28,069 nt of DNA, taken from positions 1 through 28,069 of IMG/VR virus record IMGVR_UViG_3300027865_000037; one strand, 5' to 3'. The DNA comes from a virus. A model generated the notes under the pieces. It was not told where the DNA came from. It saw only the letters and a list, made by a program, of their open reading frames with translations, and did no database searches. Below, one piece after another: positions 135 through 20,922 of the stretch (within the stretch, counting starts at the first letter, position 1; the number at the start of each line of letters is the position of its first letter). Both the position numbers and the translations under genes were made by a program.

Positions 135-584
135 TCATGGGTATTTGTTAATTGGAACTGGTGGTTTATTGATTGCCCCATACAGGTAAGAATTTTGGAC
201 TGTCAAGGCAAATTCGTTATCGTCTTCAAAAAACTCCATAAATTCTTTGTGAGCTAATCTACTATCGGCAACCGCAGGTTTACTATTTAATTCCGCAAAT
301 CTCTTGCCAGTTAATAAGCAACCCTTTGTATCACACGTCCAGTTGCCCCAATGAAAAACTATGTCGCCACGGTTTGGAACGTCCATTACTTTAAAAGTCT
401 CCCCGAACTTTGGAGACATATAACGCTTACAAATATATGCCCCTTCTGGGATGCAGGATATATCACGTTGGTTATTTTTATCAGGCGGTTCGAGTATGCA
501 AAATATTGGGAATTTATCATATACAAAATTACCGAATGTACCGTGATCCGACATCGACACCCTTCTGAGAAATAGGGGTTTCAC
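135..584 (-). CDS. DUF5675-family phage protein, probably lysis- or cell-wall-associated
   Basis: The 149-residue protein begins with GTG at 584. That start is supported because it overlaps the upstream TGA as GTGA and has an AAGGA site just before it; an ATG lies 10 codons further in. Two conserved blocks of the DUF5675 family are visible: SCIPEGAY near residues 43-50, and the VPNRGDIVFHWGN block followed by a downstream D..GC (residues about 69-91). The family is small, common in phages and often sits beside holin and endolysin genes; its reaction is not established. The His, Asp and Cys of the second block are the candidate functional residues. No signal peptide or membrane helix is seen. 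Its neighbours, a coiled-coil membrane protein upstream and a holin-like gene downstream, fit a lysis or envelope role, but this is inference. Confidence 0.75.
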   Translation of the reverse strand: MKPLFLRRVSMSDHGTFGNFVYDKFPIFCILEPPDKNNQRDISCIPEGAYICKRYMSPKFGETFKVMDVPNRGDIVFHWGNWTCDTKGCLLTGKRFAELNSKPAVADSRLAHKEFMEFFEDDNEFALTVQNSYLYGAINKPPVPINKYP

Positions 585-1009
585 CTGTTATCCTTAATCG
601 CATCTATAATGGCTTTCTGGTTTCTGTCAAGTTTATCTTCAATCCTGTTTTCCAGGTTTTGCATCTTATCAGAGAAATTCTGTTTAACATCATCCATTTG
701 CTGTTTTAAATCTTCCTTGGTAACAAATTGCTTATGTTCTTCTCGATTAACATCAGAGATATTAACCGAATATGTAATTGTAGCACCGACAACTATGATA
801 ACAACGGTAATGACAGTACCCATAAGCCATAAGCAGATTTTAGTACTTATTTTCTTGTCAACTTTATCGTAAACGCGGGTCAAACTTGAATTAAACTTTT
901 TCTTCATGCACTCCAATACCCCATCTTTAGGGTTTGTCATATCATCAATATGTTTATCAAATCTAACATGAGCTTTCTCGCATGACTCGTTAACGTTGTG
1001 TTCTGCCAT
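581..1009 (-). CDS. Single-pass membrane protein with coiled-coil C-terminus
   Basis: The 142-residue protein has a charged N-terminal region (1-57), one strongly hydrophobic helix at about residues 58-80 (rich in I, V, T and G) and a highly charged heptad-like C-terminal region (90-140) typical of a coiled coil. The family is not recognised. Topology alone suggests an inner-membrane protein with a helical domain on one side. Its position between the tail/adhesin genes and the DUF5675 and holin-like genes makes a lysis role (spanin-like or holin partner) possible. The helix is central rather than N-terminal, which is unlike a classic i-spanin. The ATG at 1009 follows a GGAGATGG ribosome-site region, and the stop overlaps the next gene's GTG by four bases, so the two are probably translationally coupled. 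Confidence 0.7.
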   Translation of the reverse strand: MAEHNVNESCEKAHVRFDKHIDDMTNPKDGVLECMKKKFNSSLTRVYDKVDKKISTKICLWLMGTVITVVIIVVGATITYSVNISDVNREEHKQFVTKEDLKQQMDDVKQNFSDKMQNLENRIEDKLDRNQKAIIDAIKDNR

Positions 1010-1021
1010 CGTCCATCTCCT

Positions 1022-2509
1022 TTATTGCCCGTAGTATCCTCTGGTTTTCATAAAGTGTTCCCATCCTTGAGCCTGTGTCCATAATTTACTGTTACTAAAG
1101 TCGAGCTGTCCTAACTCACTTATCAATCCATTGTCTCCATCGTTCTCGGCCAGAATAGCAAGGTTCTCGGCACTCGATAAAATACCGTCAGCGCAATCGG
1201 CTGCGGTAGCTGTATCTCCCATAAGAACAGCAATTCCATTTATGTAAACAATCACTTCGGTATTGTCATATTGACCCGCGCATCCCGAACCGTCTGCTCC
1301 ACTAACGCTGATTACAATATGATTTAAAGAACTTGCCGGGAACCCGCCAGGAGAGGTCAAAACAGTAAGCCCCCCACCGTTGTTATCTACTAAGGTAATT
1401 ACCAATTTTAATGCACTATCCATATAAGCACTATAGGCCGCAGTTGCGGAATTGTCACCCTTCATGAATATTACATCGCTACCCGTAACACTCGCGGGAG
1501 TTTTAAGCCAGAACGCAAACACAAAATCATTTTTCGCGGGTTCTAAATTAGCTGAATCGGTCACTGTAATATAATCGTTACCGTCACCGGATAACATGAA
1601 TGTACTTCCCTGTACTGCAAGGTCACCTGTGAGTGCCGTAACCGTTACGGTTTCACCGGCTTGTTTACTGTAATCCGAAGCAGTGGTCATGGTATAACCA
1701 CCATTGGCATCCGGTATCCAGGCAAGGGCCAAGTCAATTTCCATAGCCTCACCCTGTAAAACAAATGCCTGTGATAACTGCTCATATTGCGACTTGTCAG
1801 AAAAGTTATGTAATTGCAGTGACGAATTTACCTTAACAGCATCTATTGTTTTGACCGGATCACCGGCAGAAGGAGTAAAATCGGCAGAGCCATCGGCCAC
1901 GGACATAACTATTTCACCGTTAGCTTTTTGATTTGGAGAACTGTCTGTAATACTTGTGAGTGCCATTCTAATGCTCGCCACTTCTTCTAAAAGTCCGGCC
2001 TCTACCTCGGTTATCGTACAATCACTGCCCCCGCCACAACTACCCTCATTAAGAAGGACTTTGCCTTGGAATATAGCGGCATAATCTCCTGCCACACTAT
2101 CATTTATTGTACTCGGCATTGATCCTCTCATTGAATCTAAAACAAGAGTGGAACCGACTGAAGCGGTTTCTACATGAAAATAATTCAACGGGGAATTTGC
2201 ACCGCCCAATCTTAATATAGATGTTTCTCCTTGTGAATTAACCTCAACATCTTTCCTCAATGTTAAGGCTCCACCTTGAGCATCTGTAGTATCAGCATTA
2301 AAAATAGCAGTCAAATTTCCTGCTGCATTTTTAAGTGTTGTATTTGTTGTTGTGTCATCCGTTACGGTTAGACTTCCATTGACACCGACATCCCCCGTTA
2401 TTGTGCCACCCGTTGCGCCGTTGACGGTAAATGGTTTTCTGGATGGTTTGGTATCAGCAAATACGCTTGTGCTGAATAAGATTAAAAATAAGACTATCCA
2501 TTTTTTCAT
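1022..2509 (-). CDS. Exported protein with C-terminal LamG domain, candidate adhesin or tail-fibre-like protein
   Basis: The 495-residue protein starts with a textbook Sec signal peptide: MKK, a hydrophobic core, and predicted cleavage after VFA (residue 18). Residues 25-130 are Gly/Thr/Asn-rich beta-type sequence like that of phage fibre proteins (for example GGTITGDVGVNGSLTV). Residues about 300-475 read as a LamG/concanavalin-like domain: a FMLSGDGNDYITV strand, FAFWLKTP, then NHIVISVS, VIVYINGIAV and LISELGQLDF in the usual order. Cysteines occur in close pairs (158/164 and 410/439), compatible with disulfides after export. LamG folds generally bind sugars or proteins, so a surface- or receptor-binding role is inferred. 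It is the last of three exported proteins downstream of the ejection proteins, the place of the T7 tail-fibre gene. A periplasmic or cell-surface role in the infected host is the main alternative. Confidence 0.8.
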   Translation of the reverse strand: MKKWIVLFLILFSTSVFADTKPSRKPFTVNGATGGTITGDVGVNGSLTVTDDTTTNTTLKNAAGNLTAIFNADTTDAQGGALTLRKDVEVNSQGETSILRLGGANSPLNYFHVETASVGSTLVLDSMRGSMPSTINDSVAGDYAAIFQGKVLLNEGSCGGGSDCTITEVEAGLLEEVASIRMALTSITDSSPNQKANGEIVMSVADGSADFTPSAGDPVKTIDAVKVNSSLQLHNFSDKSQYEQLSQAFVLQGEAMEIDLALAWIPDANGGYTMTTASDYSKQAGETVTVTALTGDLAVQGSTFMLSGDGNDYITVTDSANLEPAKNDFVFAFWLKTPASVTGSDVIFMKGDNSATAAYSAYMDSALKLVITLVDNNGGGLTVLTSPGGFPASSLNHIVISVSGADGSGCAGQYDNTEVIVYINGIAVLMGDTATAADCADGILSSAENLAILAENDGDNGLISELGQLDFSNSKLWTQAQGWEHFMKTRGYYGQ

Positions 2510-2521
2510 AGTGTTCTCCTT

Positions 2522-3442
2522 TTAATTGCTGTCTGTATGTTCGTACCAGTGAAGATTTATGCTCATTTTACAATTAGCATCTGTTTTGGTCATTCTTATA
2601 AGATAGGATTCATCTGGTTTCAATACCCATTCATGCCCACTTTGTCTTGTTTCAGCAGAACTGCTCTGAGGTAAGCCTGCATTATATGTATATTGATTGT
2701 CGATAAGTTTTGTGCAAGCAGTTACAGTTACATCTTTTAATATTTGATTATTAGCTGTCGGTGTGGGCTGTGTATCATCTTCTAAAATTACCGTGGAACC
2801 ACCATCGCCAGTATCCCTATTAATATTAAAAACATTCTGAACCGTGCCTGTTCCTTGTGTCCATGTCGCACCTTCACATATTTCCCAAAATATCTCATCG
2901 CTACTTGACCAGCCAAAAAGCATGTGAGCCTTCTTAGTACCAGAAGCCGTAAAAAATGCCACGTTCATTGTTGCAACTGCTGCGTTTGCCGAGTCAACAT
3001 GACGTTCAAATGAATCACCTTCGTGTATTTCATGATGTTCAAAATTAATAACTTGGAATGAGCTGGAAACATCATCAATGTTTGCAACGTTGCCGCTACC
3101 GTTTACGATTTGAGTTTTCTGTGAGGCATCGGTCTGTATTGTCTTAATGTTAACTAATTCAGTTTCAAGAACCTTTACTCTTTCAAGTAATGTATTCTCG
3201 GTCGGACTTGCCTGAACCTCACCTATTAAAGCCTGTGTCTGGTCTTGTTCAGTAACAGTTGAGGGGTCAGACGGGATTTTACCATCAATGGAGGTTGTGT
3301 CTCCGGCTATTACCCCTGTATCGACAATAATGGTGTCTTGCTTAGATTCAGTTGACCCACCAGCGGTAGGCCGTCTTTCAGCGTGAGCATATCCCGTCAT
3401 AAGAAAAAACACGCACAATGTAGCAGATAATATCTTCTTCAT
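2522..3442 (-). CDS. Exported protein of unknown function (306 aa)
   Basis: The N-terminus is a clear Sec signal peptide (MKK, hydrophobic core, AHA cleavage site at residue 21). The mature part starts with a low-complexity Thr/Asp/Ser segment (22-80), then a short helical stretch near 82-100 (NTLLERVKVLETELVNIKT) that could trimerise in the manner of a fibre stalk, then a beta-rich C-terminal domain. The end (KPDESYLIRMTKTDANCKM) resembles the closing strands of a beta-sandwich. I do not recognise the family, although a short coiled coil followed by a C-terminal beta domain is a common plan for phage fibre tips. It lies two bases downstream of another exported protein and is followed by the exported LamG protein, so the three probably act together. 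Function is inferred only from context. Confidence 0.75.
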   Translation of the reverse strand: MKKILSATLCVFFLMTGYAHAERRPTAGGSTESKQDTIIVDTGVIAGDTTSIDGKIPSDPSTVTEQDQTQALIGEVQASPTENTLLERVKVLETELVNIKTIQTDASQKTQIVNGSGNVANIDDVSSSFQVINFEHHEIHEGDSFERHVDSANAAVATMNVAFFTASGTKKAHMLFGWSSSDEIFWEICEGATWTQGTGTVQNVFNINRDTGDGGSTVILEDDTQPTPTANNQILKDVTVTACTKLIDNQYTYNAGLPQSSSAETRQSGHEWVLKPDESYLIRMTKTDANCKMSINLHWYEHTDSN

Positions 3443-3444
3443 GA

Positions 3445-4173
3445 CTATCTCCTTACGGTTACAATTACCGTTCCATATACAGCTACCGCAGCGTTCTCAG
3501 ATACCTTTATCTCGGCGTAATTGGAACCAGTTGTTATGCCCATCGAACCGGCAACGCTATCAGCCGCACCATCAAATAGCCTATGGGTTGCACTTCCCTC
3601 ATTTGTATCAGCCACACCGTCAGGATTGAAAACGGTGAACGAACCCCCAGCGGCAGAAGAAGATGAAGTTACATTGAATATCCCATTATTGCCTGTTTCA
3701 GTAAAGCCTGATATGACTATAATCTTGTTTGGGGTAACAGTTTCGGGAACAGGATCGCCACCATCAGTGTCCCATGTATAAGTTGTCTCATTACCTGAAA
3801 CGGTTACAGTCCAATCAGTTGTAGAATTATAAGCCCCGATAACTGTTAAGGTACTCTGTGCGGTTAATGCGTCCGTGTAGAATTTATACGGGCCTAAAAG
3901 CTCGTCAGATGTCCACACCTCTACATCCCAATCGGTAGCAGTATGCAGATAAGAGTTCGGGATCGCTTCAACCTGTAGGGTTTCACCTTTAACCATTTCA
4001 ATCCTGCAATTAGGATTAGCGGAACATGGGCCAGTGCATGAAGTTGCCGTTGTTGATAACACCGTAATGTTCGTAAACGTAAGCACACATACGTCTGACT
4101 GAAGGTTTATCGCGTAAACCGGTACTGCAAGTAAAACCAATGCTGCCACTAATAATGTGATGATTCTTTTCAT
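3445..4173 (-). CDS. Exported, cysteine-rich N-terminal, beta-structured protein of unknown function (242 aa)
   Basis: The Sec signal peptide is MKR plus a Leu/Val/Ala core, with a VYA cleavage site at residue 21. Just after it four cysteines fall within about 30 residues (VCVLTF, TSCTGPCS, NCRIEM), a spacing that would suit disulfides in the periplasm. The rest is Thr/Ser/Gly/Val-rich and beta-like, ending in VAVYGTVIVTVRR. No family is recognised. It begins right after the large ejection protein with a five-base gap and an AAGGAGG ribosome site, so it is the first gene after the ejection module, at the position where related short-tailed phages encode tail fibre or spike proteins. An exported phage protein at this point is unusual. 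A surface-binding or superinfection role is possible but not shown. Confidence 0.75.
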   Translation of the reverse strand: MKRIITLLVAALVLLAVPVYAINLQSDVCVLTFTNITVLSTTATSCTGPCSANPNCRIEMVKGETLQVEAIPNSYLHTATDWDVEVWTSDELLGPYKFYTDALTAQSTLTVIGAYNSTTDWTVTVSGNETTYTWDTDGGDPVPETVTPNKIIVISGFTETGNNGIFNVTSSSSAAGGSFTVFNPDGVADTNEGSATHRLFDGAADSVAGSMGITTGSNYAEIKVSENAAVAVYGTVIVTVRR

Positions 4174-4177
4174 GGTA

Positions 4178-7100
4178 CTACCTCCTTTGAATTTTAGACC
4201 TTGTTATTGATTTCTTTTTTTCTTCAACTCCTTCAAATTGTCTAACTGCTGAAGGTGTTATTTGTCTCTCTAAGGTTTTGACTCCCTTTAAGTCTCCTAC
4301 TTCTATACCATATCTTGCATCACCTCTCTGGTATTCTTCAAGAGTAATAAGTTGCACTAAACCTTTCATAATGTCTTTGATTAACTGTAATGATCTCGGT
4401 ACAGCTATCCAAAAATTATGATTTATTGCACCAAGCACAGACATTGCTTCTCTGTAACCCTTGCGAATTATTCGTCCCGACAATGAATTATCATCTTGAC
4501 CATCAAAATATAACGCGCCGACTATAGCAACAGCAGTAACCAATTCCAAGGAGCGATATATCTGCCATGCTTCCTTGCTTGTAAAATCTTTATTTTTAAA
4601 TATAGTTTTTATATTATTTAAAGTAGATTGCAATATCGGAACAGCCCATTTCTTATATTGGTTAAACGTCTTACCTTCCGGTGTCTTTCCTATTATAGAT
4701 TCTGAACCTATCGTCTGCCTGTATTCACCCATATCAAGTTTTAATTGAGCAAGCCTGCTGTCAGATATCTCACCCGCTTGAAATTCAGCATCAGTCAACG
4801 ATCCGAGCAGAAATGTTTTATTAGCTGATACCATATTATGATGAAAGAAGCCGAACAATACTAAATTCGCTTTATCAGCAATATCTTTGTCGGCCTCTAT
4901 CATTTCCTGCCACACTGATTTGCCAATAAAATGTTCATATTTATCAAGTATTAGTTGACCTTGTTCAGTCCTCTTTCTCGCATTACCCTTTACAATATTC
5001 TTATGCCCAATTTGTATAAAATTATTCGCTCCCTCACCAACGGCTGAAGCAACACCAACAGGGATATTGAACGCCAAGTCTTTCAGCGTAGTAAATGTTT
5101 TCAATGCCCTCAGTGTTATATCAACTTTACCGCCTTGTTTAACGAGAAGTTTCGGCGCCCTGCCCTTTTGAGCGTTAATCCATTCCTTAAAGAATTTTTC
5201 CAAACTCTTATCTTCTTTTAATCCTCTCGGAGTAATCTGTTTTGGCTCAAGCGCATAAACCAAAGCATCTATCTCGGGAATAATGGCATCCAGGGCTTTC
5301 TTTGTTTCAAGCGTTCTCCAATATGTTAAGAACGCCCTTGCAGTATTCTTCGTAGGATCTAAATTGCCTGTCCTGAACAATGACTGAGGCAAGAATTTCT
5401 CCAATGCAAGGATGTCTCCGGTAGACTGATCGAGAATATTAAATACCTTTTCATCGTGTGCAAACTTTTCAAATAGACCCCTTATCCCTGCCTTCAGGCC
5501 ACCGTCTTTAATAGATTCTATTAATCCCTTGCGAACATGGGTTATATACGCACCTTCAAATCTTGTGCTTTCAAGCACTTCATTTTCAATGAGATATTCC
5601 AAAGCCTCTGCCATCTTGCCCTGCATATAGTTAGCGTAATCAATTTCCTCTGGTGTCAGGTTCTCAACAAGTTTAAGTTTGGTCTCCTGGTCGGCTTCGA
5701 GATATTCAAAAACCCCTTTATCCTGCGGTGACACGAAAGCGGAAATCTTTTGTTTCGCCGTCAGGTTTCTACTTTTCCTTGCGGCATTTGCTAAAGCGGT
5801 TATTTCCTTCTCAACCTTTATATAGTTGGCATCTGCCCCAAGTTGACGAGTTACATATTTTTTAACAACATACTCAAATAGAGGACTTGCCTTGGCCAAC
5901 ATCGTATGAGGCTTAAACCGATCAAACTCTGTTACAGTTGAAGATTCGAGTTCCGATACGGGGATGCCAGTAACTTTGTGAGCGTTCTCAATAATCTGCC
6001 TGATCGTCTTCGCTCCGGCAAACTCGGTTCTGTTTATCAGTTCTAACTTACGAACAGTAAGGAATACATCTTCTTGCTGAAAGTGTTTCAGTTCCTCATA
6101 GAGTTGGATAGCCTGTGCCTCATTCATTTTATTAATGGGCGGTAACTTCAAGACTTTTCTGAGATTATTCCAACCCCTGAATTGTTTTTGTGTAATCAAA
6201 TCCTGAAGTGCATTTTTGGCTATTGCTGTTTGTTCAAACTCTGCGGCCTTGACCCTGAGATCGTCCATGAACTGCTTAAATTCAAAATTGCTCATCAACC
6301 TTATGTCTCTACGAGTAATCTTTCTCAGATCGGCATCTGTCAGATTAAACTGTGCCTGCGCTGATTTAACAAACTGTCTGCGCCTTGCCACGATTTCCTT
6401 CGCAGTTTTTACTTTATCAATTTTTGCATTAGCCCTTGCCTTGACTTTTGCTATCCTTTCATTTGTCGTTTCTCTTTGCTGTAACTTGAGGGTAGCAATT
6501 CGTTCCTTCTGTTTTTCCTTCAACTCTTTTATCTTTGCCTTGAGTTTTACAACATCCTGTTCGGCTTGAGTACCCTGTTCCTCTTTTAATAGCCTTCGAG
6601 CCTCTTGCTCAATTTCAAGTTCAAAGTCTTTAGCAGTAGAAAAAACCTTTTCAAACTTCGTTTCAGCAGATAAGTCTTGTTCGAGAATATCCAAAAAATC
6701 AGATGGCAAAGCATCTTCGGGAATTGCAAACCCCTCTGCCCTTGCTTGTGCCAACATATCATCAACGGTAACACCTGAACCCTTTTTAACAAGCCCCTTG
6801 CCGAAGTCCTTTATTATTTCCAGTTCGCCTGTTAAACCGCCGCTTTTACCTTCTTTGATTAAATCAAAACCTCCACTCTTTTTAACAAATACCGCCAATG
6901 AATCTTTATCAGGATTAAAACCTTTTACCTTTCCGGCAACTGGTTTTGTAGGTGCTTTAATTTCTTTTTTGGGTGGAGGCTTAACTTCAAATAATCCTTT
7001 TTCGTTTATTACCCCCACTTCTATAGGCACATTCTCAATACCTAATTCTTGATGCGCAATAACTCTATGGTGTCCATCAAATATACTTAACTTACCCTCA

Positions 7101-8398
7101 TCTGTTTTAATGACTTGGATGGGCGGTACATCTTCTCCTTTAGATATGCTTTCTTTTATGGGATCAATTATAGTTCTATCTTGTTTTGCAATTTGAGACA
7201 GGGTTCTTGGTGTTGTAGATTTAAGATTTTCAATAGGTGCTGTTTCGACCACAGCTTCAGGTTTTGCTATCCCTTCAATTTCCCTATCAATCTCAGCAAC
7301 ACGTTCAATGGCTTCAGGTTCTTTAGAAGGTTCAAGTTTGGCTCTCTCAATAGACAGTCTTTCAAGTTGCAATATTTGTTCGGGTTCAGTTGCTTTAACT
7401 TCACGTTCTCCAAATTTGAATGTCTTCGCCCCTTCTTCTGTGACAGTTCTTACTTCTTTGGCAGGGTCAATTTTTAATAGTTGTTTTACCTTTGCAAACC
7501 ACGGCCTATCTCTTAATATTGTGATTCTTTCAGCGGGTATTTCAATCGTCACCCCCTCTCTTAACGATTGTCTTATCAGTGCCTTGCCTTCTAATGCGCC
7601 AATGCCCTTCATCTCAGCTATAATGCTGGCCTCTGTAGCACCTATCTTGCTCGGCTGTTCTTGCAAATGCAACCTCAGTTCGGCAGGATCAATAAATATA
7701 GTTTCGGCGGCTTTATGTTCCGTGATTATCTGTTTTGCTATTCTCTCACCTAATCTCGGAGAGGTTTTAAATACTTGATGAGCAAGAAGTCCTTTGCCAA
7801 GAAAATCAAGTGTATCAACAACATCAGTTGTTAACTGACTCGCATCTTCAGGAAGTAAATCTGAAATACCCTTTTTCTGAAATGCCTTATATTTTTCTCC
7901 TTCTATAAGATTAATCACAGCACTCTCACCTTCACCAATAGCTTCAAAAACAGCAATGCCAAGCAATGCCCCAACTGGGTTGGACGCAAGGCCAGCGGCC
8001 ACTACCGGAAGTGTCGCACCACCTATAAATTCTTCGGTAGATATTTCCTGTCTCAACCCGATTTCCTCTGATAGTTCATCATGTAAGTCCCATGCCTGTG
8101 AAGGTGGTATATTAAACATTTCTGCATAACCAAGTGAGTTTTGTGCCTTTGCCTTTAATCTTTCAGGGTCTTCCCTAATTAAGTCGTTGATTCCTGATCT
8201 TTCAAAGAAAGCCTGTCTCTGTGCGTTAGTTATTAAAGGAGCGATGCCCTCACGTTTCTCACGTTCCAGCCTTTCGGTAATAGTTTCACGGCCAGTAAAA
8301 TCTACTGTATCAAACCCTTCAAGACTTATGCCTTCGCCACCTTCGGTTTGTGCTTTAGTCTCAAAGCCTTCAAGTGATATGCTTTCAACGTCGGCCAT
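4178..8398 (-). CDS. Large internal virion / DNA-ejection protein (T7 gp16-like position) with ParB-like segment
   Basis: At 1406 residues this is the largest protein of the window. It follows 185- and 627-residue proteins in the order and rough sizes of T7 gp14-gp15-gp16, whose products leave the head and form a channel for DNA. Visible parts: two copies of ISLEGF at residues 7-12 and 24-29; a hydrophobic Gly/Ala segment at 124-155; a ParB-like segment around 388-470 with DGHHR at 441-445; a long charged Lys/Arg/Glu coiled coil at about 585-690; a hydrophobic stretch near 1281-1298; and a basic C-terminus. No transglycosylase motif is apparent, unlike T7 gp16. No cysteine is seen. The hydrophobic pieces may insert into the host membrane on ejection (inference). 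The start codon overlaps the end of the upstream gene by one base. Confidence 0.8.
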   Translation of the reverse strand: MADVESISLEGFETKAQTEGGEGISLEGFDTVDFTGRETITERLEREKREGIAPLITNAQRQAFFERSGINDLIREDPERLKAKAQNSLGYAEMFNIPPSQAWDLHDELSEEIGLRQEISTEEFIGGATLPVVAAGLASNPVGALLGIAVFEAIGEGESAVINLIEGEKYKAFQKKGISDLLPEDASQLTTDVVDTLDFLGKGLLAHQVFKTSPRLGERIAKQIITEHKAAETIFIDPAELRLHLQEQPSKIGATEASIIAEMKGIGALEGKALIRQSLREGVTIEIPAERITILRDRPWFAKVKQLLKIDPAKEVRTVTEEGAKTFKFGEREVKATEPEQILQLERLSIERAKLEPSKEPEAIERVAEIDREIEGIAKPEAVVETAPIENLKSTTPRTLSQIAKQDRTIIDPIKESISKGEDVPPIQVIKTDEGKLSIFDGHHRVIAHQELGIENVPIEVGVINEKGLFEVKPPPKKEIKAPTKPVAGKVKGFNPDKDSLAVFVKKSGGFDLIKEGKSGGLTGELEIIKDFGKGLVKKGSGVTVDDMLAQARAEGFAIPEDALPSDFLDILEQDLSAETKFEKVFSTAKDFELEIEQEARRLLKEEQGTQAEQDVVKLKAKIKELKEKQKERIATLKLQQRETTNERIAKVKARANAKIDKVKTAKEIVARRRQFVKSAQAQFNLTDADLRKITRRDIRLMSNFEFKQFMDDLRVKAAEFEQTAIAKNALQDLITQKQFRGWNNLRKVLKLPPINKMNEAQAIQLYEELKHFQQEDVFLTVRKLELINRTEFAGAKTIRQIIENAHKVTGIPVSELESSTVTEFDRFKPHTMLAKASPLFEYVVKKYVTRQLGADANYIKVEKEITALANAARKSRNLTAKQKISAFVSPQDKGVFEYLEADQETKLKLVENLTPEEIDYANYMQGKMAEALEYLIENEVLESTRFEGAYITHVRKGLIESIKDGGLKAGIRGLFEKFAHDEKVFNILDQSTGDILALEKFLPQSLFRTGNLDPTKNTARAFLTYWRTLETKKALDAIIPEIDALVYALEPKQITPRGLKEDKSLEKFFKEWINAQKGRAPKLLVKQGGKVDITLRALKTFTTLKDLAFNIPVGVASAVGEGANNFIQIGHKNIVKGNARKRTEQGQLILDKYEHFIGKSVWQEMIEADKDIADKANLVLFGFFHHNMVSANKTFLLGSLTDAEFQAGEISDSRLAQLKLDMGEYRQTIGSESIIGKTPEGKTFNQYKKWAVPILQSTLNNIKTIFKNKDFTSKEAWQIYRSLELVTAVAIVGALYFDGQDDNSLSGRIIRKGYREAMSVLGAINHNFWIAVPRSLQLIKDIMKGLVQLITLEEYQRGDARYGIEVGDLKGVKTLERQITPSAVRQFEGVEEKKKSITRSKIQRR
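6989..7237 (-). other. ParB-like segment in the large ejection protein
   Basis: Residues about 388-470 contain DRTIIDPIKESISKGEDVPP followed by IQVIKTDEGKLSIFDGHHRV and IAHQELGIENVPIEV. The order 'IxxGxxxPPI.V...G.L.I.DGHHR..A...LG' is that of ParB/sulfiredoxin-fold domains, which bind or cleave nucleotides or DNA. Confidence 0.7.
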
Positions 8399-10281
8399 TA
8401 TTTAAGCCTTTTAACTGCAAGTTTAATGTTCTTTTCAGTTTCCGGTAAATTCAAAGCCTTTAGAAATAATTTAACGCCTTCTTCATCGGGCTTAAAGGAA
8501 TAGAATCTATCACCTACTTTTATTATCTTGAATCCCAATCTTTGTTCAGCCTCAACAGTTTTATCAAAAGTCGGATGTTTCCTCCCTTTCAATATTAATC
8601 CAGTAGTCGCATCTCTACTTGGTAAGTGACCTGTCTCATCAGGCTCGATGCCCAATCTTTTAACAGTTTGAAAGTCATACTCTGAACCTTCGGGGTCAAA
8701 TTCTACAGCTATAGAAGCTTCTTGTTCTTGTTTTATTGTTAATGCTTTCTGTCTGCCTGCTTCTTTTTGCCTTACTTCAAGTTCTTCGGGTGTCTCCCCT
8801 ATGCCAGATATCCTTTGTCCTATAATACCGAAACCCTCACTTATATCAGATATAAATGTATTTAAAATATTTTTTGCCTTTTCATTTTTAATCGCATCAG
8901 TCCTTACTTTAAGTTCATTGAATAATTCTTGTGCCGTTGCATCCTCAGATGATAAATTATTTAGTGCCTGAGATATGTCATTATAATTTTCAGCACTCTC
9001 TAAGCTCTGTTCAGGTGTAAAGGTTTTCGGATCACCGCCACCCACTACGAGCAATCCATTACCATCAAATCTGCCTAATTCCTGTATCACATTCTGAAGT
9101 GGGGAGTTGACTTTAAAATTTGTATTGTTATTAAAGTTATTTAATACTGATTTAAGTTTTTCACCTTGGGTAGATGATATGGTTTCGTTGGCAACCTGTT
9201 CATCTATAAGAGGCTCTGACCAATTCCCTCTTGTTTTTATATCGTAAATTTCCTGTTCAACGTCTTTAAATTTCTCAACCTTAAATAAATCAAGTTCGCC
9301 CTTAACCCATCTATCTTGGATTTTTCTAAGGTTCTCGATATTAACCGTATCGTTTCCGGTAGGCGGTAAGGGTACTTTTGTTAAATCGGGCAACTCCTCA
9401 AATGTTTCAGCACTTATAATGGCATCGTAATTAGTTTTGTAAACCTGTAGTTCAGCCTCTTTCTTCTCTCTATCAGCTACCGTTTTAGCATCTTTGATCT
9501 GTTGCTTGAGAGCCTTCTTTTTAGTGTTGGCATTACTAATTAACGTCTTCCTTGTCTTCTCTGTTACTAACTCCTTAAGCTCATCGGTTTGTAAATTATC
9601 TATAATTGCATCGAGTTCTTCATCTGATTGCGCACTATCTATTCTTGAAGTAACGCCAGAAGTAGTTACTATTTCAGTAGCACTTAAAACGGATGCTTCT
9701 ATAGCTTCAGGCGGTAAGACGCTACCAAATTCCTCAATCCCTTCTTCCAAGTCAATAATTATTTCCGGTGTTCTTGAAGGGTCTAAAGATGCCTCGTTGG
9801 CTGCTTGAGCAACCCGATTGTCGATAATATTTTTAGTTGCTACAATCTGCTGAGAACCTTCGTGCCTTAATACCGACAATTCTAATTGACTACTTTTTTG
9901 CTGTGCATCAAAAGTTAGTTCTTCTCTTAAGTGAGCGTGTTGGTTTGGGATGTTCTTTAATGCCTTATCTCTTATTAATTTAGATGATTCACTGTATCTC
10001 TCTGACCCGCCCTTTGCATCGCCGCCGAGCCTGGTTGTTTCCTGAATTGCGGCCTCGCCTAATTGCCGGTTAACTTCGTTGCCAAACTGATTCTTAAAGT
10101 TCAGGTCTTCATGCTCAAACCTCCGCTTGGCTGCATCTCTTACAACGTCTCCAAGTTCACCGGCTGCTTCTCCAAATACCTGAGATGCGCCTTGGAGAGG
10201 TCTGGTATCAACTTGAGGTGCAGAGACTCTGCTTCCGCTTAAAGTCTGTTGCTGTTTACCTGTGCCGGGAATTTTCGGCAT
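8398..10281 (-). CDS. Internal virion / ejection protein (T7 gp15-like position)
   Basis: The 627-residue protein is almost entirely charged and helical with long coiled-coil-prone stretches (about 30-330), as expected of an ejection protein that assembles into a tube. It sits between the gp14-like and gp16-like genes. Near the C-terminus (about 545-600) is a segment with GHLPSRD, then ILKGRKHPTFDKT and GDRFYSF. A similar 'LKGR.HPT' segment occurs in large structural proteins of many phages (from memory), which supports a virion role. No signal peptide and no cysteine are seen. Its ATG starts two bases after the previous gene's stop. Assignment rests on order, size and composition rather than on a catalytic motif. 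Confidence 0.75.
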   Translation of the reverse strand: MPKIPGTGKQQQTLSGSRVSAPQVDTRPLQGASQVFGEAAGELGDVVRDAAKRRFEHEDLNFKNQFGNEVNRQLGEAAIQETTRLGGDAKGGSERYSESSKLIRDKALKNIPNQHAHLREELTFDAQQKSSQLELSVLRHEGSQQIVATKNIIDNRVAQAANEASLDPSRTPEIIIDLEEGIEEFGSVLPPEAIEASVLSATEIVTTSGVTSRIDSAQSDEELDAIIDNLQTDELKELVTEKTRKTLISNANTKKKALKQQIKDAKTVADREKKEAELQVYKTNYDAIISAETFEELPDLTKVPLPPTGNDTVNIENLRKIQDRWVKGELDLFKVEKFKDVEQEIYDIKTRGNWSEPLIDEQVANETISSTQGEKLKSVLNNFNNNTNFKVNSPLQNVIQELGRFDGNGLLVVGGGDPKTFTPEQSLESAENYNDISQALNNLSSEDATAQELFNELKVRTDAIKNEKAKNILNTFISDISEGFGIIGQRISGIGETPEELEVRQKEAGRQKALTIKQEQEASIAVEFDPEGSEYDFQTVKRLGIEPDETGHLPSRDATTGLILKGRKHPTFDKTVEAEQRLGFKIIKVGDRFYSFKPDEEGVKLFLKALNLPETEKNIKLAVKRLK

Positions 10282-10283
10282 AA

Positions 10284-10841
10284 TTACTTACCCTCCAATA
10301 ATCCTGTCTTACTTGCTGATTCAATTAAACTTGATACTGTTTTTAACTGTAACGCCGCCTGACCGATTCTGCCTGCCGTGCTTGCTATTCTACCGCTTAA
10401 TCGAGCAGATGAAGCCGCGATGAGTTCGTTTTGAATATCTATATCACCACCGAATTTAATAGCCAGTGCGTCTAAGTCTCCGACAACGCCAATTCGCTCC
10501 AATACCTGTTGTGGCGTTCCTTCTGTCGCTACTCCGGCCTTGCCAAATAATGCCCGACCTCTTGACACCGCCGCCTTGGTTCTCTCTTTCCTTCGAGCTA
10601 CTGCAAAATCGCGCCTTTCCTTGGCTATTTTTGCGTTTATCTCGGCAATCCTCGCGTTAAGGTCGGCTTGCATCCTTAAACCCTCAGTTCTCGCTCTAAG
10701 GTTCTCTCTGCCTGTGAAGAAGCCAAAGGTAGTATTTAGCAGGTCAAGGCCAAATAACGCAACTGACGGGCTTATAGAGCTTGTAGAAGCACCTCCACCA
10801 CTACCGCTAAACCCTTTTGTCTGATCTCCGAAATACGGCAT
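10284..10841 (-). CDS. Small internal virion / ejection protein (T7 gp14-like)
   Basis: The 185-residue protein opens with a Gly/Ser-rich segment (residues 7-26), a short hydrophobic part (LFGLDLLNTTFGFFTG, about 29-44) and a long Arg/Ala/Lys helix (about 48-110) containing AEINAKIAKERRDFAVARR. This matches the plan of the smallest ejection protein of T7-like phages: a membrane-prone N-terminus plus an alanine-rich coiled coil. It lies between the tail nozzle gene and two much larger helical proteins, the expected order of the ejection module. The start overlaps the nozzle stop by one base, indicating coupled translation. The family call is from composition and position; sequence similarity to T7 gp14 itself is likely to be low. 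Confidence 0.75.
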   Translation of the reverse strand: MPYFGDQTKGFSGSGGGASTSSISPSVALFGLDLLNTTFGFFTGRENLRARTEGLRMQADLNARIAEINAKIAKERRDFAVARRKERTKAAVSRGRALFGKAGVATEGTPQQVLERIGVVGDLDALAIKFGGDIDIQNELIAASSARLSGRIASTAGRIGQAALQLKTVSSLIESASKTGLLEGK

Positions 10842-13800
10842 TAAACACCTTCCTTGGTATCAACATTTGGTATTATCGCTACAATAGTCTGAGGAAACGG
10901 CTTATCCTGTAATATAGTTATATTTCCGTCAGTCTCATAGCCTTCAGGATAATCAAACCTTACATCTGCCGTAAGCAGTTCTCCGGCTGTGAAATCATCG
11001 CTAATCCTGTCATTATCCGTTTCGCTCGGCCCACATTTAGCATTAAAGGCTTTATTAAACCTGATATTGACTAAGGTTATCTTCTTATCCCTTGCCTGTG
11101 CCGTGCCATCGGATGCCCCTGCCTCTAACCGCATTAACTGTAATGTCCCGTCATAGGCGATACCAACACCTACTTTAGAGGCAGAATCTATTGTTATCGA
11201 ACCACTTGATACCGTAGCATCATCCTGTTGCAAACCGTCTCCCACTACACTGACTGTTTCGCCGTCTAAGTGGTCAAGACCAGTTATAGTCGTTGTAGGA
11301 ACGCCATCATACTTAACCCCGCTATCCATAAAAAAGATAGGATTAGATACCATATCATCATCGCTAAATACAGAATCCATTTTTTCCACATATCGCACCA
11401 CCGAGCCATCTACGGTTCTTTTAATTATCGCCCATAACTCATCTTCGTTATTGCCTGGGATTACTGCTATTGACTCAAACTCACCGCTTAGACCAGTTGT
11501 GTGTCTATGCCATGCAATAACATTCTCATCCTTTAGGAGTGTCAGGCCAAGCAACGTGCCATCGCCTCGTATCATCCATATCGTAGAATACGGATAATTC
11601 TGAAAGGCTAATTCCTTAACACCGCCCTCTGTTATATGTTCTGCTAATATATTAAGGTCATCAGACTTGTATCTATCTACGTCAAAGTTAAATATCATCT
11701 CTCTCACTTTTCTTGCGCCCTTTTGAACATATAATACAAACTGTCCGATCTTGACCGGCTGAATGTTGGCACTTCCATTACTCGTCTGTTGTTTTGCATC
11801 CACGTTTGTCGGCGTTACCGGCTCTCCCGCACCCCTGCTACCAAAAGCCCACTCACCACCTTCCGTGCCGACTAAGAGACTGTCTCCATCCTCCATCCAC
11901 AATATAGTGTTGACCTGCCTACCTAATAATGTAAAAGCATAGGCATCTGAGTCATTAGCACTACCGGGATCATGGTTTTCGTAATCATCGACCTGAGAAC
12001 CCCATATAGTCTGAGGAAATGAAGGCGATCCCGCCCATAGCAGACGATTTTCAAAGAATACTACCGAACCAGGATAATCACTTGTTGTCCATACCGATTT
12101 CTTTAATTCCCACTCACCTGCTAATAAAACTACGTTTGTATCATAGGTGTCTGTAGCGGTGGCCACTCCTGTAACGACCTTTGAATTAGTAAAGGTCAGG
12201 ATTTTGTAAATTATAGCTCCTGTGCCGTCATCGGTTACTATAAAACTTCCGATGTCACCTGCGGCAAAAACATCTAATGATGTGGTTAGGGTTACTACTT
12301 CTCCGTAATTAACTATCAAACCACCGGCATAATGACCTGATATAGTAAGTGTTCCGCTACTTGTTAAGCCTATGAAATCCCATGTTCCGGCATCAGGTGT
12401 TGTGCTTGAAAACTCTACAAATATATCTACCGTAGCTGTATCTGCATCTGCTACAGCTACTACAACTGCACGGCCATTGCCAACGGTGCTGTCTTCTCGT
12501 ATTTCTTTACCTACGTCACCGTCTGCAAATAATGTTCCGGCCGTTCCGGCATCCGTTGCGGCTATGTCAGCCCCCACTTCTTTTTGACCAAGCGTTAATT
12601 CAATGTTCGGGTCTTCCCTTTCGGTTTTTAGTGGCGGCGGCAGAAACTCAATTTCAACCAGACTCCACGATGTATCGGCAAGTCTTATTAATTTTCTCGG
12701 TGCATAGCTTGGATGGGCTATATATAAAACATCTGCTGATTGAGCGAACTTAAGTTGAAATAAATCACCCTTGACATAAGGCGTTACTACTTCAATGCCT
12801 GATCCCCCACCTTCTGGCGAAAGCCCATATTGCACTGTTAAAGGTACGAAATCAACCGTGTGCCTGAGCGTTCCCTTAGACCACCGTATTTCATCCATCC
12901 ACCCTTTAAAATCATTGGAGTTATCAACCTCAGTACCGATAAAAAAATCTTCGTCAAGACCTCCATCAGCCGTTAAGGTCATGGACTGAACACCATCGGC
13001 GTGTAACTGTCCATCGGTAAACATATAGACCTGAGGTTCGGATACATCGTAATTCATTTCTATGTGATGAAACTTGTCAGGTGTTATATCGTCTTGGGGC
13101 ATTTCGACTGTATCTACCACTACGGGGCCAGAATCGCCAAGCTCAAATACTGCATGTGCAATTTTTCTTTCCGCAACCGTTGGGACAGTCAGTGTCGCAC
13201 CACTATATCTTGCAGATAATGAGAATTTTAAATCATCTATCAAGCCATCGTAACGTGTAAATGAAGATGAAGAAGACCCTATGAAAATATCATCAGCACT
13301 CATATCGTTCAGAGTATCGTTAAAAGTGTCGGTATCAACCCTAACCCCATCTACATATAAGGTAAAATTTGTTCCGTCTCCCACAACAGCGATATGACTA
13401 TAAGTCTCGGCTGCCACTGTCCCACCCTGAATACTTACCTGTGTGCCTCCATCGGCTTTATGAATCGCAGTCACAACAGATGTCGCTAAGTTAATAATTA
13501 GAAAATTATTAGAGTCTTGATTCAAGAGAAATAAAGTTTGAGTACCTGCTACCGTATCAGGTCTTATCCACATTTCGATTGTAAATACCTCGGCACTTCC
13601 TGTAGCACCAATATCGAAATCACTATCACCTGTATGAGTTAAATAATTTGTTGAGCCATTAAATTCTAACGCACCTGTTCCGAATTTCGGGTTATCAGTG
13701 TTAACCGTAACTGAATTAACATTTGTCATAGTTTTGGTATTAAATGACGAATCAAGTAGCGTGTCTCCGTTTAATAACAGCCCTGTGTAATAACTTAAAT

Positions 13801-14419
13801 AACCCTTCATGTATACTTGAGAGTCACCTGTTTGGTCTTGATGAAATAAAGTATACGGAGGACTTTCGCCGGTTTGCATCCTGACCCATGCGTCAAAACC
13901 TCCGTCAGTTACTGATAGGTCAAAATCGGCATCATCGCCAATTTCCAAGCGGTCATTCGTTCCATCAAACAAACCGGATGAAACACCAAACTTCTTTTCA
14001 GCAGTATCTAATTGAGCATTAGATTTTTCATCTACGGTGTGTGCAGATGGCGATGAATCTATAAAGTCCGTGCTACCGTCAGTACCGTCTGCGTGAAGCA
14101 ACAACTTGGTCTCTGCGTCTACTTCGGTTATTAACCCACCGTCCCTGAAAAATCGAACAGTCAAATCTCCAAATTCTAAAACGTAAGCCTGCTCATTAGA
14201 AAACCTGAACTCAACTAATCGGGATTGGTTGGCACTGGTTTCTGTCTCTGCTATAAATTCAAATGCAGGCCGGAAAATAGCTGGCCCTTGCGGGGTGAGT
14301 AAATAGTTCTCACATTTCTTAAGAAGTTTGGGGTACTTTTCTAAATCGGCACGTCCATCTATTAGAGGACTTACTTCTCCACCATTGAATGAAGAAATTA
14401 ACGGATATTCTCTCGGCAT
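10841..14419 (-). CDS. Tail tubular protein B / tail nozzle with nested LamG insertion
   Basis: Residues 1-100 (ISSFNGGEVSPLIDGRADLE, CENYLLTPQGPAIFRPAFEF, AYVLEFGDLTVRFFRDGG) and the part from about 541 (VVTPYVKGDLFQLKFAQSAD, VLYIAHPSYAPRKLIRL) match the conserved core of short-tail nozzle proteins (T7 gp12-like, phage stabilisation family). Between them, residues about 103-530 are an insertion that looks like LamG/concanavalin-like modules, the second (about 212-413) nested within the first. The core continues after 541 with VVFFENRLLWAGSPSFPQTI and further beta-propeller-like sequence. The protein caps the short tail and closes the DNA channel before ejection. At 1192 residues it is longer than the usual 700-800, and the extra length equals the insertion. 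The LamG part probably faces outward and may bind the host surface (inference). It starts three bases after tubular protein A. Confidence 0.9.
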   Translation of the reverse strand: MPREYPLISSFNGGEVSPLIDGRADLEKYPKLLKKCENYLLTPQGPAIFRPAFEFIAETETSANQSRLVEFRFSNEQAYVLEFGDLTVRFFRDGGLITEVDAETKLLLHADGTDGSTDFIDSSPSAHTVDEKSNAQLDTAEKKFGVSSGLFDGTNDRLEIGDDADFDLSVTDGGFDAWVRMQTGESPPYTLFHQDQTGDSQVYMKGYLSYYTGLLLNGDTLLDSSFNTKTMTNVNSVTVNTDNPKFGTGALEFNGSTNYLTHTGDSDFDIGATGSAEVFTIEMWIRPDTVAGTQTLFLLNQDSNNFLIINLATSVVTAIHKADGGTQVSIQGGTVAAETYSHIAVVGDGTNFTLYVDGVRVDTDTFNDTLNDMSADDIFIGSSSSSFTRYDGLIDDLKFSLSARYSGATLTVPTVAERKIAHAVFELGDSGPVVVDTVEMPQDDITPDKFHHIEMNYDVSEPQVYMFTDGQLHADGVQSMTLTADGGLDEDFFIGTEVDNSNDFKGWMDEIRWSKGTLRHTVDFVPLTVQYGLSPEGGGSGIEVVTPYVKGDLFQLKFAQSADVLYIAHPSYAPRKLIRLADTSWSLVEIEFLPPPLKTEREDPNIELTLGQKEVGADIAATDAGTAGTLFADGDVGKEIREDSTVGNGRAVVVAVADADTATVDIFVEFSSTTPDAGTWDFIGLTSSGTLTISGHYAGGLIVNYGEVVTLTTSLDVFAAGDIGSFIVTDDGTGAIIYKILTFTNSKVVTGVATATDTYDTNVVLLAGEWELKKSVWTTSDYPGSVVFFENRLLWAGSPSFPQTIWGSQVDDYENHDPGSANDSDAYAFTLLGRQVNTILWMEDGDSLLVGTEGGEWAFGSRGAGEPVTPTNVDAKQQTSNGSANIQPVKIGQFVLYVQKGARKVREMIFNFDVDRYKSDDLNILAEHITEGGVKELAFQNYPYSTIWMIRGDGTLLGLTLLKDENVIAWHRHTTGLSGEFESIAVIPGNNEDELWAIIKRTVDGSVVRYVEKMDSVFSDDDMVSNPIFFMDSGVKYDGVPTTTITGLDHLDGETVSVVGDGLQQDDATVSSGSITIDSASKVGVGIAYDGTLQLMRLEAGASDGTAQARDKKITLVNIRFNKAFNAKCGPSETDNDRISDDFTAGELLTADVRFDYPEGYETDGNITILQDKPFPQTIVAIIPNVDTKEGV
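12800..14113 (-). other. Nested LamG-type insertion within the nozzle gene
   Basis: This stretch encodes residues about 103-540 of the nozzle protein. It starts LLLHADGTDGSTDFIDSS with KKFGVSSGLFDGTNDRLEI (first half of a LamG module). A complete second module follows from GLLLNGDTLLDSSFN to GLIDDLKFSLSARYSG (residues 212-407, DNA about 13199-13786). The second half of the first module follows: FHHIEMNYDVSEPQVYMFTD and GWMDEIRWSKGTLRHTVDF. The core nozzle resumes at VVTPYVKGDL. Confidence 0.75.
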
Positions 14420-14422
14420 CTA

Positions 14423-15256
14423 TCATCTTCCTCGATTACTTATCCATGAAAAGTTTGCATCTCCAGGCTGTTCGTCAGGGTTAGCGGTTTGTGAATCCTG
14501 CTTCTCGGCCTTCTGTAAAGCGTTTTCATATTCAACAAGAATGTCTGCCTGAAGCGTTCTGCTATTTGCAATTACCATACATATCTGAAAAGCTATCTTT
14601 AAATATAATGCTCTGACGAAAGCCGATGTGTATTTAGATACGTCAGTGACACGCGCTATATAAGGTAGCTGGATTACATCGTCATTGGAATACATGTAGT
14701 CGCCTTCATCTAAAAAACTTACCGGAAGTGCTACGTTTGAATCTTTGTCCTCAAAGGTGGTCAGGTAGTCAGAAGGTTTGTCGAATACGAAATCAAACCC
14801 TACGCCACGGCGTAAAGTAAGGGTTATGCTTCCTGTCGGCCCCTCTGCGGTCAAAGAATCATCTGCAACTAATGTAAGCGTTGCTTCTGCTGCCGTTGCA
14901 ACCGTATAACCACCTTGACTGTCATTACTGCTACTGTCTTCGGGGCTGACCCTCATACCGGCAATGATACCGCCTGTCGTTACAAAAGAAGATGCTGAAT
15001 CAGTGATTGTGTCGGGATCGGCATCGGCAAATGTAAGATTGCCTGAACTCGCATACGTTTTGTTATCAAGCGTTACGAGCCTTCTCGCAAAGTTCCACGG
15101 GAAAGCCCGTAACACATTGTCTCGTTCGTTAGCGAAATGAAGGTTTACCTGTCTTGCTGCCTTGTTGCTATCTGTTAACGCAGTTATCTTATCGTGACCG
15201 ACACGGGCTAAAGCCATGTTAGCAAGCTCTACCTCAGTAGAAATCAATGTTGACAT
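14423..15256 (-). CDS. Tail tubular protein A / head-to-tail adaptor (T7 gp11-like)
   Basis: The 277-residue protein carries the family signature at its N-terminus: VELANMALARVGHDKITALT, then ARQVNLHFANERDNVLRAFP and WNFARR. In short-tailed phages this adaptor ring sits below the portal and holds the nozzle. A stretch at about 70-155 (Ser/Thr/Asp-rich, with GGYTVATAAEATLTLV) looks like an inserted beta domain not present in the shortest relatives, while IAFQICMVIANSRTLQADIL near the C-terminus is the usual closing helix region. It is directly followed by the nozzle gene, the standard pair. A ten-base gap separates it from the basic-tailed small protein upstream. The call is secure; the insert is inferred. 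Confidence 0.9.
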   Translation of the reverse strand: MSTLISTEVELANMALARVGHDKITALTDSNKAARQVNLHFANERDNVLRAFPWNFARRLVTLDNKTYASSGNLTFADADPDTITDSASSFVTTGGIIAGMRVSPEDSSSNDSQGGYTVATAAEATLTLVADDSLTAEGPTGSITLTLRRGVGFDFVFDKPSDYLTTFEDKDSNVALPVSFLDEGDYMYSNDDVIQLPYIARVTDVSKYTSAFVRALYLKIAFQICMVIANSRTLQADILVEYENALQKAEKQDSQTANPDEQPGDANFSWISNRGR

Positions 15257-15620: not shown

Positions 15621-17342
15621 CTATCCGGTACAGGTTATAGAACCAGTAGCTTCACCGACTCCACGGCAAAACCAATCAACACCGTCAGAAACACAAATAA
15701 CAAAATCACCAACGGTATCAGCAGTATCAACGAAACTAATCTTATCGGCATCAATTATCGAATAAGATGAATTGTCCACATCTATCATGCAAACAATGTT
15801 ATCTCCTTCAGGTGATTCTACCGTATCATCATCTGCGGAATCTGAGGCATTAATGAACATAAACTCACAACCCGCCGAACCTGAGATTGCCGGGAGTGTA
15901 TGAGTCGTTGCAGGAGTACCATCTGCATCCGAGAATACCAGACCACATTCAGCAAGGGTAAGAGTATTTGCCCCGCCTTCAGTTGTGTATCTCTCAGTGT
16001 CTTTAAGATGCCCAAACAATGTTACTGTTGGAACTGATGTGCCACTGTCTGAAATCACAATATTGTCCGTTGTACCTGGGGCAGCACCTAATCCGATAAC
16101 AAGATCATCATTGGTATCATAAATACCGACATGATAATCTTCAGCACTACCATCAAATATAAGGATTGAATCTTCAGCACCGGCATCGCCTATGGTAAGA
16201 GATGGAGCTACACCACTTAAAACTGCGTTACCGCCACTTGCGACTCTCCACACTTCCTGAACAGCACCGGCATCCTTACAGCTAACTACCCAATCAGCAT
16301 CTTCTGAACCAGTACCTACGTCAGTCCATACCGATGCAAATTTGCAAGCAGTTTCAACACCATCGGCAAATTCAGCCTGCATGTCTATACCAACTCCAAA
16401 ATCTGCTACAGTTGTGCCACCACTCGCCTTTAAAACGATAAGGTCATTAACATCATTCGTTTCTGCTGACCTTGAAGTGATTTCCATCCTTGTACCTTCG
16501 GCTGTACCATCTGCATCAGCTACAAGTCTCAATGTCTCACTAACTGTACCATTATCGTTCTGTCTCCACACAAGATCAACATCTTCTTGAGCGGTAGTGA
16601 TAGTAGTGAAAACAGTTGCGAACTCAGCCTGAATTTCAGAGCCACCGGCATCAACCATCCAGTATTCGTGTGTAGCACCTAAACCTGCCAACTCAGTACC
16701 TACCGATAACAGTTTGAACATACCAGTTGTGATCTCAGCATTAAGCTCTGTCGTGTTTGAAGTGAACTGAAAATAATCACCGGCATCAGCAGCTTCAGCA
16801 GCAACTAAGCGGAATGTCTCGGTAACATCACCATTGACCATGTGTTTAAAAACCATGTCAGAATCTTCGGTAGTAGAAGTCGGCGTTGTGATAACTACAT
16901 CAATACTTCCATGTTCCTCTGTAGTTGTGCCTGTATCATCTTCAAGTTTCCAGACAACACCGGCTCCAAAACCAGTAGTTGTGTCAGCACCCGATATGTC
17001 CATTGTAATTGCATCCTGAACGGTATTTGTTCCAGCAGTTACCTTTGTGATTGTAACTAAATCCGAATGAGCGTTTGTCGCACCGGCTGTGTAACTTGAG
17101 TCACCAAAAGTCACAACCCTGTCTGCTGTTGGATCGGTTATGAGAAAACAGGTCTCAAAAGCATTTTCAGTCAGTCCTTCAAAACAAAGCGAAGTCCCGG
17201 AAGTTTCTCCGAGTGTTCGCTGCATGATTACGCCATTGTAAATATGCTCTCCTGTGTACGTCATGTCGTCTCTGATTTCTGTCGCATGGGCTATAGCAAA
17301 ATACCCCAATACAACAATTAATATAAAAAACAGTTTCTTCAT
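15621..17342 (-). CDS. Exported beta-repeat, cysteine-rich protein (fibre-like)
   Basis: The 573-residue protein has a Sec signal peptide (MKK, aromatic/Val/Leu core, cleavage after AHA at residue 20). The mature part holds three approximate repeats of the same pattern (about 123-182, 222-277 and 314-370): a Trp or Met strand with alternating charges, a Thr-rich stretch, an acidic ED.D motif, and an ending like ETFRLVA, ETLRLVA or EVWRVAS. These resemble repeats in phage fibre-type proteins. The C-terminal half is beta-type (SILIFDGSAEDYHVGIYD). There are ten cysteines, many more than in the cytoplasmic virion proteins around it, as expected for export to an oxidising compartment. It overlaps the preceding gene by four bases (ATGA). 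A fibre or surface protein is the best guess; which surface carries it is unknown. Confidence 0.75.
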   Translation of the reverse strand: MKKLFFILIVVLGYFAIAHATEIRDDMTYTGEHIYNGVIMQRTLGETSGTSLCFEGLTENAFETCFLITDPTADRVVTFGDSSYTAGATNAHSDLVTITKVTAGTNTVQDAITMDISGADTTTGFGAGVVWKLEDDTGTTTEEHGSIDVVITTPTSTTEDSDMVFKHMVNGDVTETFRLVAAEAADAGDYFQFTSNTTELNAEITTGMFKLLSVGTELAGLGATHEYWMVDAGGSEIQAEFATVFTTITTAQEDVDLVWRQNDNGTVSETLRLVADADGTAEGTRMEITSRSAETNDVNDLIVLKASGGTTVADFGVGIDMQAEFADGVETACKFASVWTDVGTGSEDADWVVSCKDAGAVQEVWRVASGGNAVLSGVAPSLTIGDAGAEDSILIFDGSAEDYHVGIYDTNDDLVIGLGAAPGTTDNIVISDSGTSVPTVTLFGHLKDTERYTTEGGANTLTLAECGLVFSDADGTPATTHTLPAISGSAGCEFMFINASDSADDDTVESPEGDNIVCMIDVDNSSYSIIDADKISFVDTADTVGDFVICVSDGVDWFCRGVGEATGSITCTG

Positions 17343-20651: not shown

Positions 20652-20922
20652 TTGTTGTCTCCTTTTTTTCTATAGTTAAACTCATCATTGAGTTCATAAT
20701 TGCAGTCGCAAATTCATCACTTCTTTCTTCCCGTGAGACTCCGAGCATTTTTAAAATGGATGTGCAGAGATCACGTTTACCTACTGCCTTATCAGTCTTG
20801 GTGTCATCGTTAAAGAAACCGCCCATTAAGAGGATTTTACCGAGTGTTCTTCTGCCGTGTTCACCCTTAAATGTCTCACGAAAATCAGTTATATTTTCTT
20901 TTGTTAAAAGCTCTTCGTTCAT
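20644..20922 (-). CDS. Bbp19-like small phage protein
   Basis: The 92-residue protein has the pattern of the Bbp19-like family: FRETFKGEHGRRTLGKILLM followed by GGFFNDD and a later GKRDLCTSILKMLGV. The family is found between portal and scaffold genes in BPP-1-like and T7-like phages; its role is not known. Its ATG overlaps the portal stop codon as ATGA, and its own end overlaps the scaffold start by eight bases, so it is translated as part of the head module. No membrane or signal segment is visible. It is assigned to the family from the GRR.L core and its position; a role in head assembly is inferred only from where it lies. Confidence 0.7.
   Translation of the reverse strand: MNEELLTKENITDFRETFKGEHGRRTLGKILLMGGFFNDDTKTDKAVGKRDLCTSILKMLGVSREERSDEFATAIMNSMMSLTIEKKETTNE

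Follow-up and report, generated by a model that had tools for sequence, protein, structure and literature searches.

Signal peptides on fiber-position proteins and tail nozzles of uncultured podoviruses suggest export of some virion parts

Where would a tailed phage use proteins that are encoded at its fiber position and begin with Sec-type signal peptides (SPs)? Tailed-phage assembly is taken to be cytoplasmic, and three such genes in a row in an uncultured phage raise this question. The window analyzed is the whole 28,069-base stretch of a virus record, and its module of podovirus structural genes lies on the minus strand. The gene order is TerL, portal, a scaffold-position gene, capsid, a phrog_427-like protein, a gp11-like adaptor, and the nozzle, followed by three internal virion proteins, the three SP genes, and possible lysis genes. 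The phrog_332 portal, phrog_212 capsid, phrog_394 gp11, and phrog_376 nozzle occur in the order that characterizes HTVC010P/epsilon15-type phages. The portal is about 30% identical to those of HTVC010P-type pelagiphages and epsilon15-type phages. The preliminary description had compared the position of the three genes with that of the fiber in T7-like phages. The three genes do follow the ejection proteins, the position of the T7-type fiber gene (gp17), but T7 itself is a more distant relative of the phage than the HTVC010P/epsilon15-type podoviruses are. This likeness lies in structural gene order and families; the structural module of HTVC010P has no SP and two weak calls occur far downstream, whereas the window encodes four SP proteins.

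135 to 1009, minus strand: two genes past the SP proteins, 142 and 149 amino acids
1022 to 2509, minus strand: SP protein 3, 495 amino acids; predicted cleavage after VFA; LamG/ConA-like lectin domain at residues 309–437
2522 to 3442, minus strand: SP protein 2, 306 amino acids; predicted cleavage after AHA; residues 131–303 match phrog_5335
3445 to 4173, minus strand: SP protein 1, 242 amino acids; first gene past the ejection proteins; predicted cleavage after VYA
4178 to 8398, minus strand: large internal (ejection) protein, 1406 amino acids, assigned by position; no SP, no Cys
8398 to 10281, minus strand: internal protein, 627 amino acids, assigned by position; no SP, no Cys
10284 to 10841, minus strand: internal virion protein (phrog_418), 185 amino acids; no SP, no Cys
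10841 to 14419, minus strand: nozzle (tail tubular B, phrog_376), 1192 amino acids, with LamG insertions; no SP
14423 to 15256, minus strand: gp11-like adaptor (phrog_394); no SP
15621 to 17342, minus strand: SP protein 4, 573 amino acids; predicted cleavage after AHA; fiber-like repeat
18846 to 19862, minus strand: major capsid protein (phrog_212); no SP
20919 to 22601, minus strand: portal (phrog_332); no SP

The 142-residue protein has one membrane segment and weak spanin-like matches, the 149-residue protein is DUF5675, and their genes are possible lysis genes. The window contains no further fiber gene besides the SP proteins at the fiber position.

Signal peptides were called with a heuristic that looks for a basic n-region, an uncharged hydrophobic core, and small residues at −3 and −1. 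The heuristic was calibrated on 85 Escherichia coli K-12 coding sequences; it detected 15 of 17 exported proteins and gave false calls on 0 of 44 cytosolic and 3 of 23 membrane proteins. The three consecutive open reading frames (495, 306, and 242 residues) are present as first described, and the proposed cleavable SPs ending in VYA, AHA, and VFA were recovered as heuristic calls on all three, each gene having an ATG and a strong Shine-Dalgarno sequence. For the frames at 1022–2509, 2522–3442, and 3445–4173, cleavage is predicted between MKKWIVLFLILFSTSVFA and D, MKKILSATLCVFFLMTGYAHA and E, and MKRIITLLVAALVLLAVPVYA and I, respectively. A fourth SP protein that the preliminary description omitted is the 573-residue product of 15621–17342, whose gene is placed between head and tail genes (capsid and gp11) and whose predicted cleavage falls between MKKLFFILIVVLGYFAIAHA and T. 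By the heuristic, all four proteins have the n-region, core, and −3/−1 features of Sec and signal peptidase I substrates. In podovirus loci with an SP-less nozzle, 6 of 990 non-core genes and none of the core structural genes drew a strong call, and against this background three SP genes in a row and a fourth in the module are far beyond chance. Across 80 nozzle-bearing viral contigs the calls were scattered and mostly weak, L006 excepted.

The IMG/VR contig IMGVR_UViG_3300037246_001032 (39,332 bases; G001) is a relative with SPs at all four places, although the protein bodies have diverged. Its fiber-position SP genes encode 239, 708, and 582 residues, and a 520-residue homolog of the fourth protein is also present. 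SP protein 1 is 45% identical to the 239-residue protein at the equivalent position. The middle genes differ, the 306-residue protein of the window and the 708-residue SP protein of G001 being unrelated. SP protein 3 is 61% identical to the 582-residue protein over residues 1–49 with no similarity beyond; the conserved part consists of the SP and about 30 residues, and the bodies after that are unrelated. A LamG domain (PF13385, E = 3.6e-8) lies in the variable body. In the 495-residue protein the N-terminus is fixed, the C-terminal body is exchangeable, and a binding domain is present; this is the general pattern of receptor-binding fibers, and the protein is a probable fiber of this kind. 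None of the three proteins matched an N-terminal phrog_1640-like adaptor domain; they differ from T7 gp17 in lacking this domain and in having SPs and a LamG domain. The preliminary description placed cysteines past the SP in two of the three proteins, a count that has to be corrected to all three. Their mature parts hold 4, 3, and 4 Cys, the 306-residue protein having 3, and all four of those in SP protein 1 are kept in G001.

None of the four window SP proteins matched any known family of exclusion or outer-membrane proteins in Pfam or PHROGs. In INPHARED, the 495-residue protein had no match and the 306-residue protein gave one weak match. Viral-contig searches with the 242-, 306-, and 573-residue proteins and the large internal protein returned G001 alone or nothing. 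AlphaFold2 models of the 242- and 306-residue proteins had mean pLDDT values of 33 and 30, too low for use. Residues 38–385 of the large internal protein (4178–8398) are 77% identical to those of its G001 counterpart, far above the remainder of both genomes, and the protein aligns poorly outside this segment; judged from the alignment, the pattern is one of mosaic exchange.

The fourth protein has 10 Cys and is 44% identical to the 520-residue SP protein of G001, with the SP and most of the N-terminal half conserved. It contains the repeat FEGxTxxxFETxxxxxDPTADR with a Cys pair, and the FEG..FET..DPTADR repeat is also found in HTVC008M fiber-like proteins and a Kolga 'tail fiber'. The two positions that flank the repeat are Cys/Cys in the window and G001. 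In 14 SP-less copies they are V/I and T (12 copies), T/T (one), or S/S (one). The L143 copy bears an SP but has V and T at these positions.

A scan by N-terminal nozzle alignment yielded 80 loci, and removal of near-copies left 23 contigs with an SP on the nozzle, or 24 non-duplicate contigs counting G001. The nozzle of the window, like most others, has no SP. The G001 nozzle starts with MAKKRQRWTVRRERGLRQIGTFLSALILVILFTLPVSA, predicted to be cleaved before GKFNDIQAGFQAGEL, and this leader shares bases, in a different frame, with the 3′ end of gp11. The nozzles of L006, L091, and L092 start with MRHILIFLFLCCTAFA ahead of ENPYRILNNFNAGEL and similar sequences. All 24 leaders differ in sequence and keep SP character, with A, G, or S at −1 in 24 of 24 and two K/R near the start in 19. 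Predicted cleavage leaves 7–11 residues ahead of an FNAGEL-type motif (read by eye), and SP-less nozzles mostly have 7–9 residues between Met and this motif. Cleavage would restore the usual nozzle N-terminus at about its normal length. Among the nozzle homologs listed from INPHARED, alignments begin at residue 18–23, past the leader. The SP state needs four changes on a 128-row nozzle tree, at least two of them forced by well-supported branches, in a tree whose details are unsure owing to long branches that include G001 and the window. SP nozzles have 0.85 Cys per 100 residues compared to 0.51 for SP-less nozzles (Mann-Whitney p = 6e-5, relatedness uncorrected). At the level of sequence, these data establish conserved SPs, their precise joining to nozzles that are otherwise normal, and an elevated number of cysteines.

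Five nozzle leaders have no ATG, GTG, or TTG. They have a GGAGG-type site followed by ATT (L132, L134, L140) or ATA (L131, L139), and AUU/AUA starts are likely for these nozzles. For L149 and L154, a nozzle split in two, each half with its own SP, was considered and rejected; the alignment gives a full nozzle and then a partial paralog of its distal part with an inserted stretch (L149:12552–14411, L154:12519–15017). The paralog has its own SP in L149 and an SP-like start with an unclear cleavage site in L154.

The distribution of predicted SPs over the module is narrow, confined with few exceptions to genes between capsid and gp11 and to proteins that lie distal to gp11. In the SP-nozzle loci they are absent from capsid (0/19), portal (0/13), scaffold (0/15), gp11 (0/20), and TerL (0/3), and are present on one of 23 internal proteins. 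Of the remaining genes 25 of 174 have an SP compared to the 6 of 990 in SP-less-nozzle loci, an enrichment whose Fisher p value of 2e-16 overstates independence, the contigs being related and the groups defined by the nozzle SP. Most of these SP genes lie between capsid and gp11, like the 573-residue gene of the window. In L003 (Manatee Spring) and vir555, an SP-bearing long gene occupies the fiber position, and an SP-less phrog_1640 adaptor, the T7-type fiber adaptor, lies directly or closely before it. L006 has an SP nozzle, yet its fiber-like gene at the fiber position has no SP. The sole exception to the pattern is L145:10573–11247, an internal virion protein A homolog with an SP-like leader. 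An SP-like call on L149 gp11 looks false, the N-terminus being apparently that of a normal gp11. SP or SP-like genes also occur next to SP-less nozzles in L162, L173, L175 (second gene before the nozzle), and L143:6723–7415, the last encoding a protein that shares the fiber repeat with the 573-residue protein.

Scans of genome contigs found neither a host nor a prophage. The product of L092:2620–3159, between capsid and gp11, has a lipoprotein-type signal (LLCGC), which is odd for a virion protein, and G001 encodes a DUF481 outer-membrane-type protein at 32121–32834 (L001:16934–17647). These two features suggest that the host is probably diderm.

SP-less homologs connect the SP proteins to virion structures. 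The G001 708-residue protein contains phrog_1645 'virion structural protein' (E = 8e-36), and its homologs in cyanophage S-T4, a 485-kb uncultured phage (47% identity), and Sulfitobacter phage phiGT1 are all without an SP. These homologs have 3, 1, and 2 Cys, respectively, compared to 7 in the G001 protein. The window 306-residue protein contains phrog_5335 (E = 1e-7), and its Vibrio phage 172P1 relative lacks both SP and Cys and is preceded by two large Cys-free proteins. These comparisons suggest that virion families that are SP-less elsewhere gained an SP and more cysteines here.

We propose, with a probability of about 0.5, that all four SP proteins belong to the outside of the virion, being exported and joining DNA-filled heads at lysis. 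The fiber or receptor-binding parts (1022–4173) and the fiber-like protein (15621–17342) would be made as Sec preproteins and would lose their leaders to signal peptidase in the periplasm. Disulfides could form there between their cysteines, and such bonding of the exported parts is probable. Heads filled with DNA, comprising capsid, portal, gp11, and ejection proteins, would be built in the cytoplasm without the SP proteins. Lysis would open the inner membrane, periplasmic parts would meet heads, and the particle would be completed; in relatives, the nozzle would take the periplasmic route too. Export, cleavage, disulfides, virion presence, and timing are all steps that we infer from the gene sequences. 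In P22 and T7, tail parts can join finished heads in vitro. This two-compartment reading is favored because SPs recur on the nozzle, whose place in the virion is certain, and because the SP-less homologs are virion structural proteins. On the same grounds, the earlier suggestion of periplasm-folded virion parts that join at lysis has become the reading with the most support, although that support is partial. The SP-less nozzle of the window counts against it, as do the SP-less fiber-like gene of L006 and the SP-like start of the L145 internal protein, which should stay unexported. A head lacking its nozzle would also have to keep its DNA until lysis. The wider proposition, that a group of dsDNA tailed phages finishes its virions outside the cytoplasm with fibers, capsid-adjacent proteins, and some nozzles Sec-exported and matured in the periplasm, is tentative and falls a little short of an even chance.

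The window SP proteins could instead be exported without entering virions, coating the infected cell or being released to act in superinfection exclusion or as adhesins or receptor decoys. Exported phage proteins such as Lom and Cor often act in this way, and a DUF481 outer-membrane protein in G001 fits such a role. For the window's three proteins this alternative draws weight from the lack of an SP on the window's nozzle. However, the SP genes occupy the fiber position within the structural module, the window has no alternative fiber gene, and the fiber repeat, the lectin domain, and the fixed N-terminus with a variable body all point to virion parts, as does the virion nature of the SP-less homologs. 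Lom and Cor resemble the window proteins in having an SP on a phage protein, but they are not syntenic virion genes, and the window proteins have no family match. The nozzle SPs would also be left unexplained, and we consider this alternative unlikely. Somewhat more doubtful is that the leaders tether proteins to the inner membrane, where tails would assemble, or stay uncleaved and membrane-active in the virion. The SP-like leader of the L145 internal protein homolog and the one lipoprotein-type leader in L092 are in line with membrane attachment, whereas the small residues at −3/−1 in 24 of 24 nozzle leaders and the normal length of the mature N-terminus argue for cleavage, and extra cysteines fit an oxidizing compartment. 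An artifact of wrong start codons or chance hydrophobic N-termini is very improbable: the calls come from a heuristic and not from SignalP, a few nozzle leaders need AUU/AUA starts, and the G001 leader overlaps gp11, but the window genes have strong ribosome-binding sites, no cytosolic E. coli protein was falsely called, and SP character is kept over 24 nozzles whose leaders differ.

Virion proteins with signal peptides are known from filamentous phages, whose coat proteins pIII and pVIII have them and whose particles are extruded through the envelope. The window would share this feature but comes from a dsDNA tailed phage that has a terminase, a portal, and a capsid. Searches of openly accessible papers, a set with few subscription journals and no preprints, listed no title or abstract that describes SPs on the structural or tail tubular proteins of a tailed phage. 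One paper names SP prediction as a method only (PMC6811365), and another mentions an SP for Lom only (PMC12309495). These gene families have been described before; Sec leaders on tailed-phage nozzles and fibers, as predicted here, appear to be without precedent in the literature searched.

In metagenomes, SP-bearing fibers and nozzles could be mistaken for host or secreted proteins. If the two-compartment reading is true, a conserved Sec leader on nozzle and fibers would mean a tailed-phage particle built in two compartments. Heads would need to stay closed without the nozzle, receptor-binding parts could be stabilized by disulfides, free periplasmic fibers could block superinfection, and lysis would be linked to final assembly.
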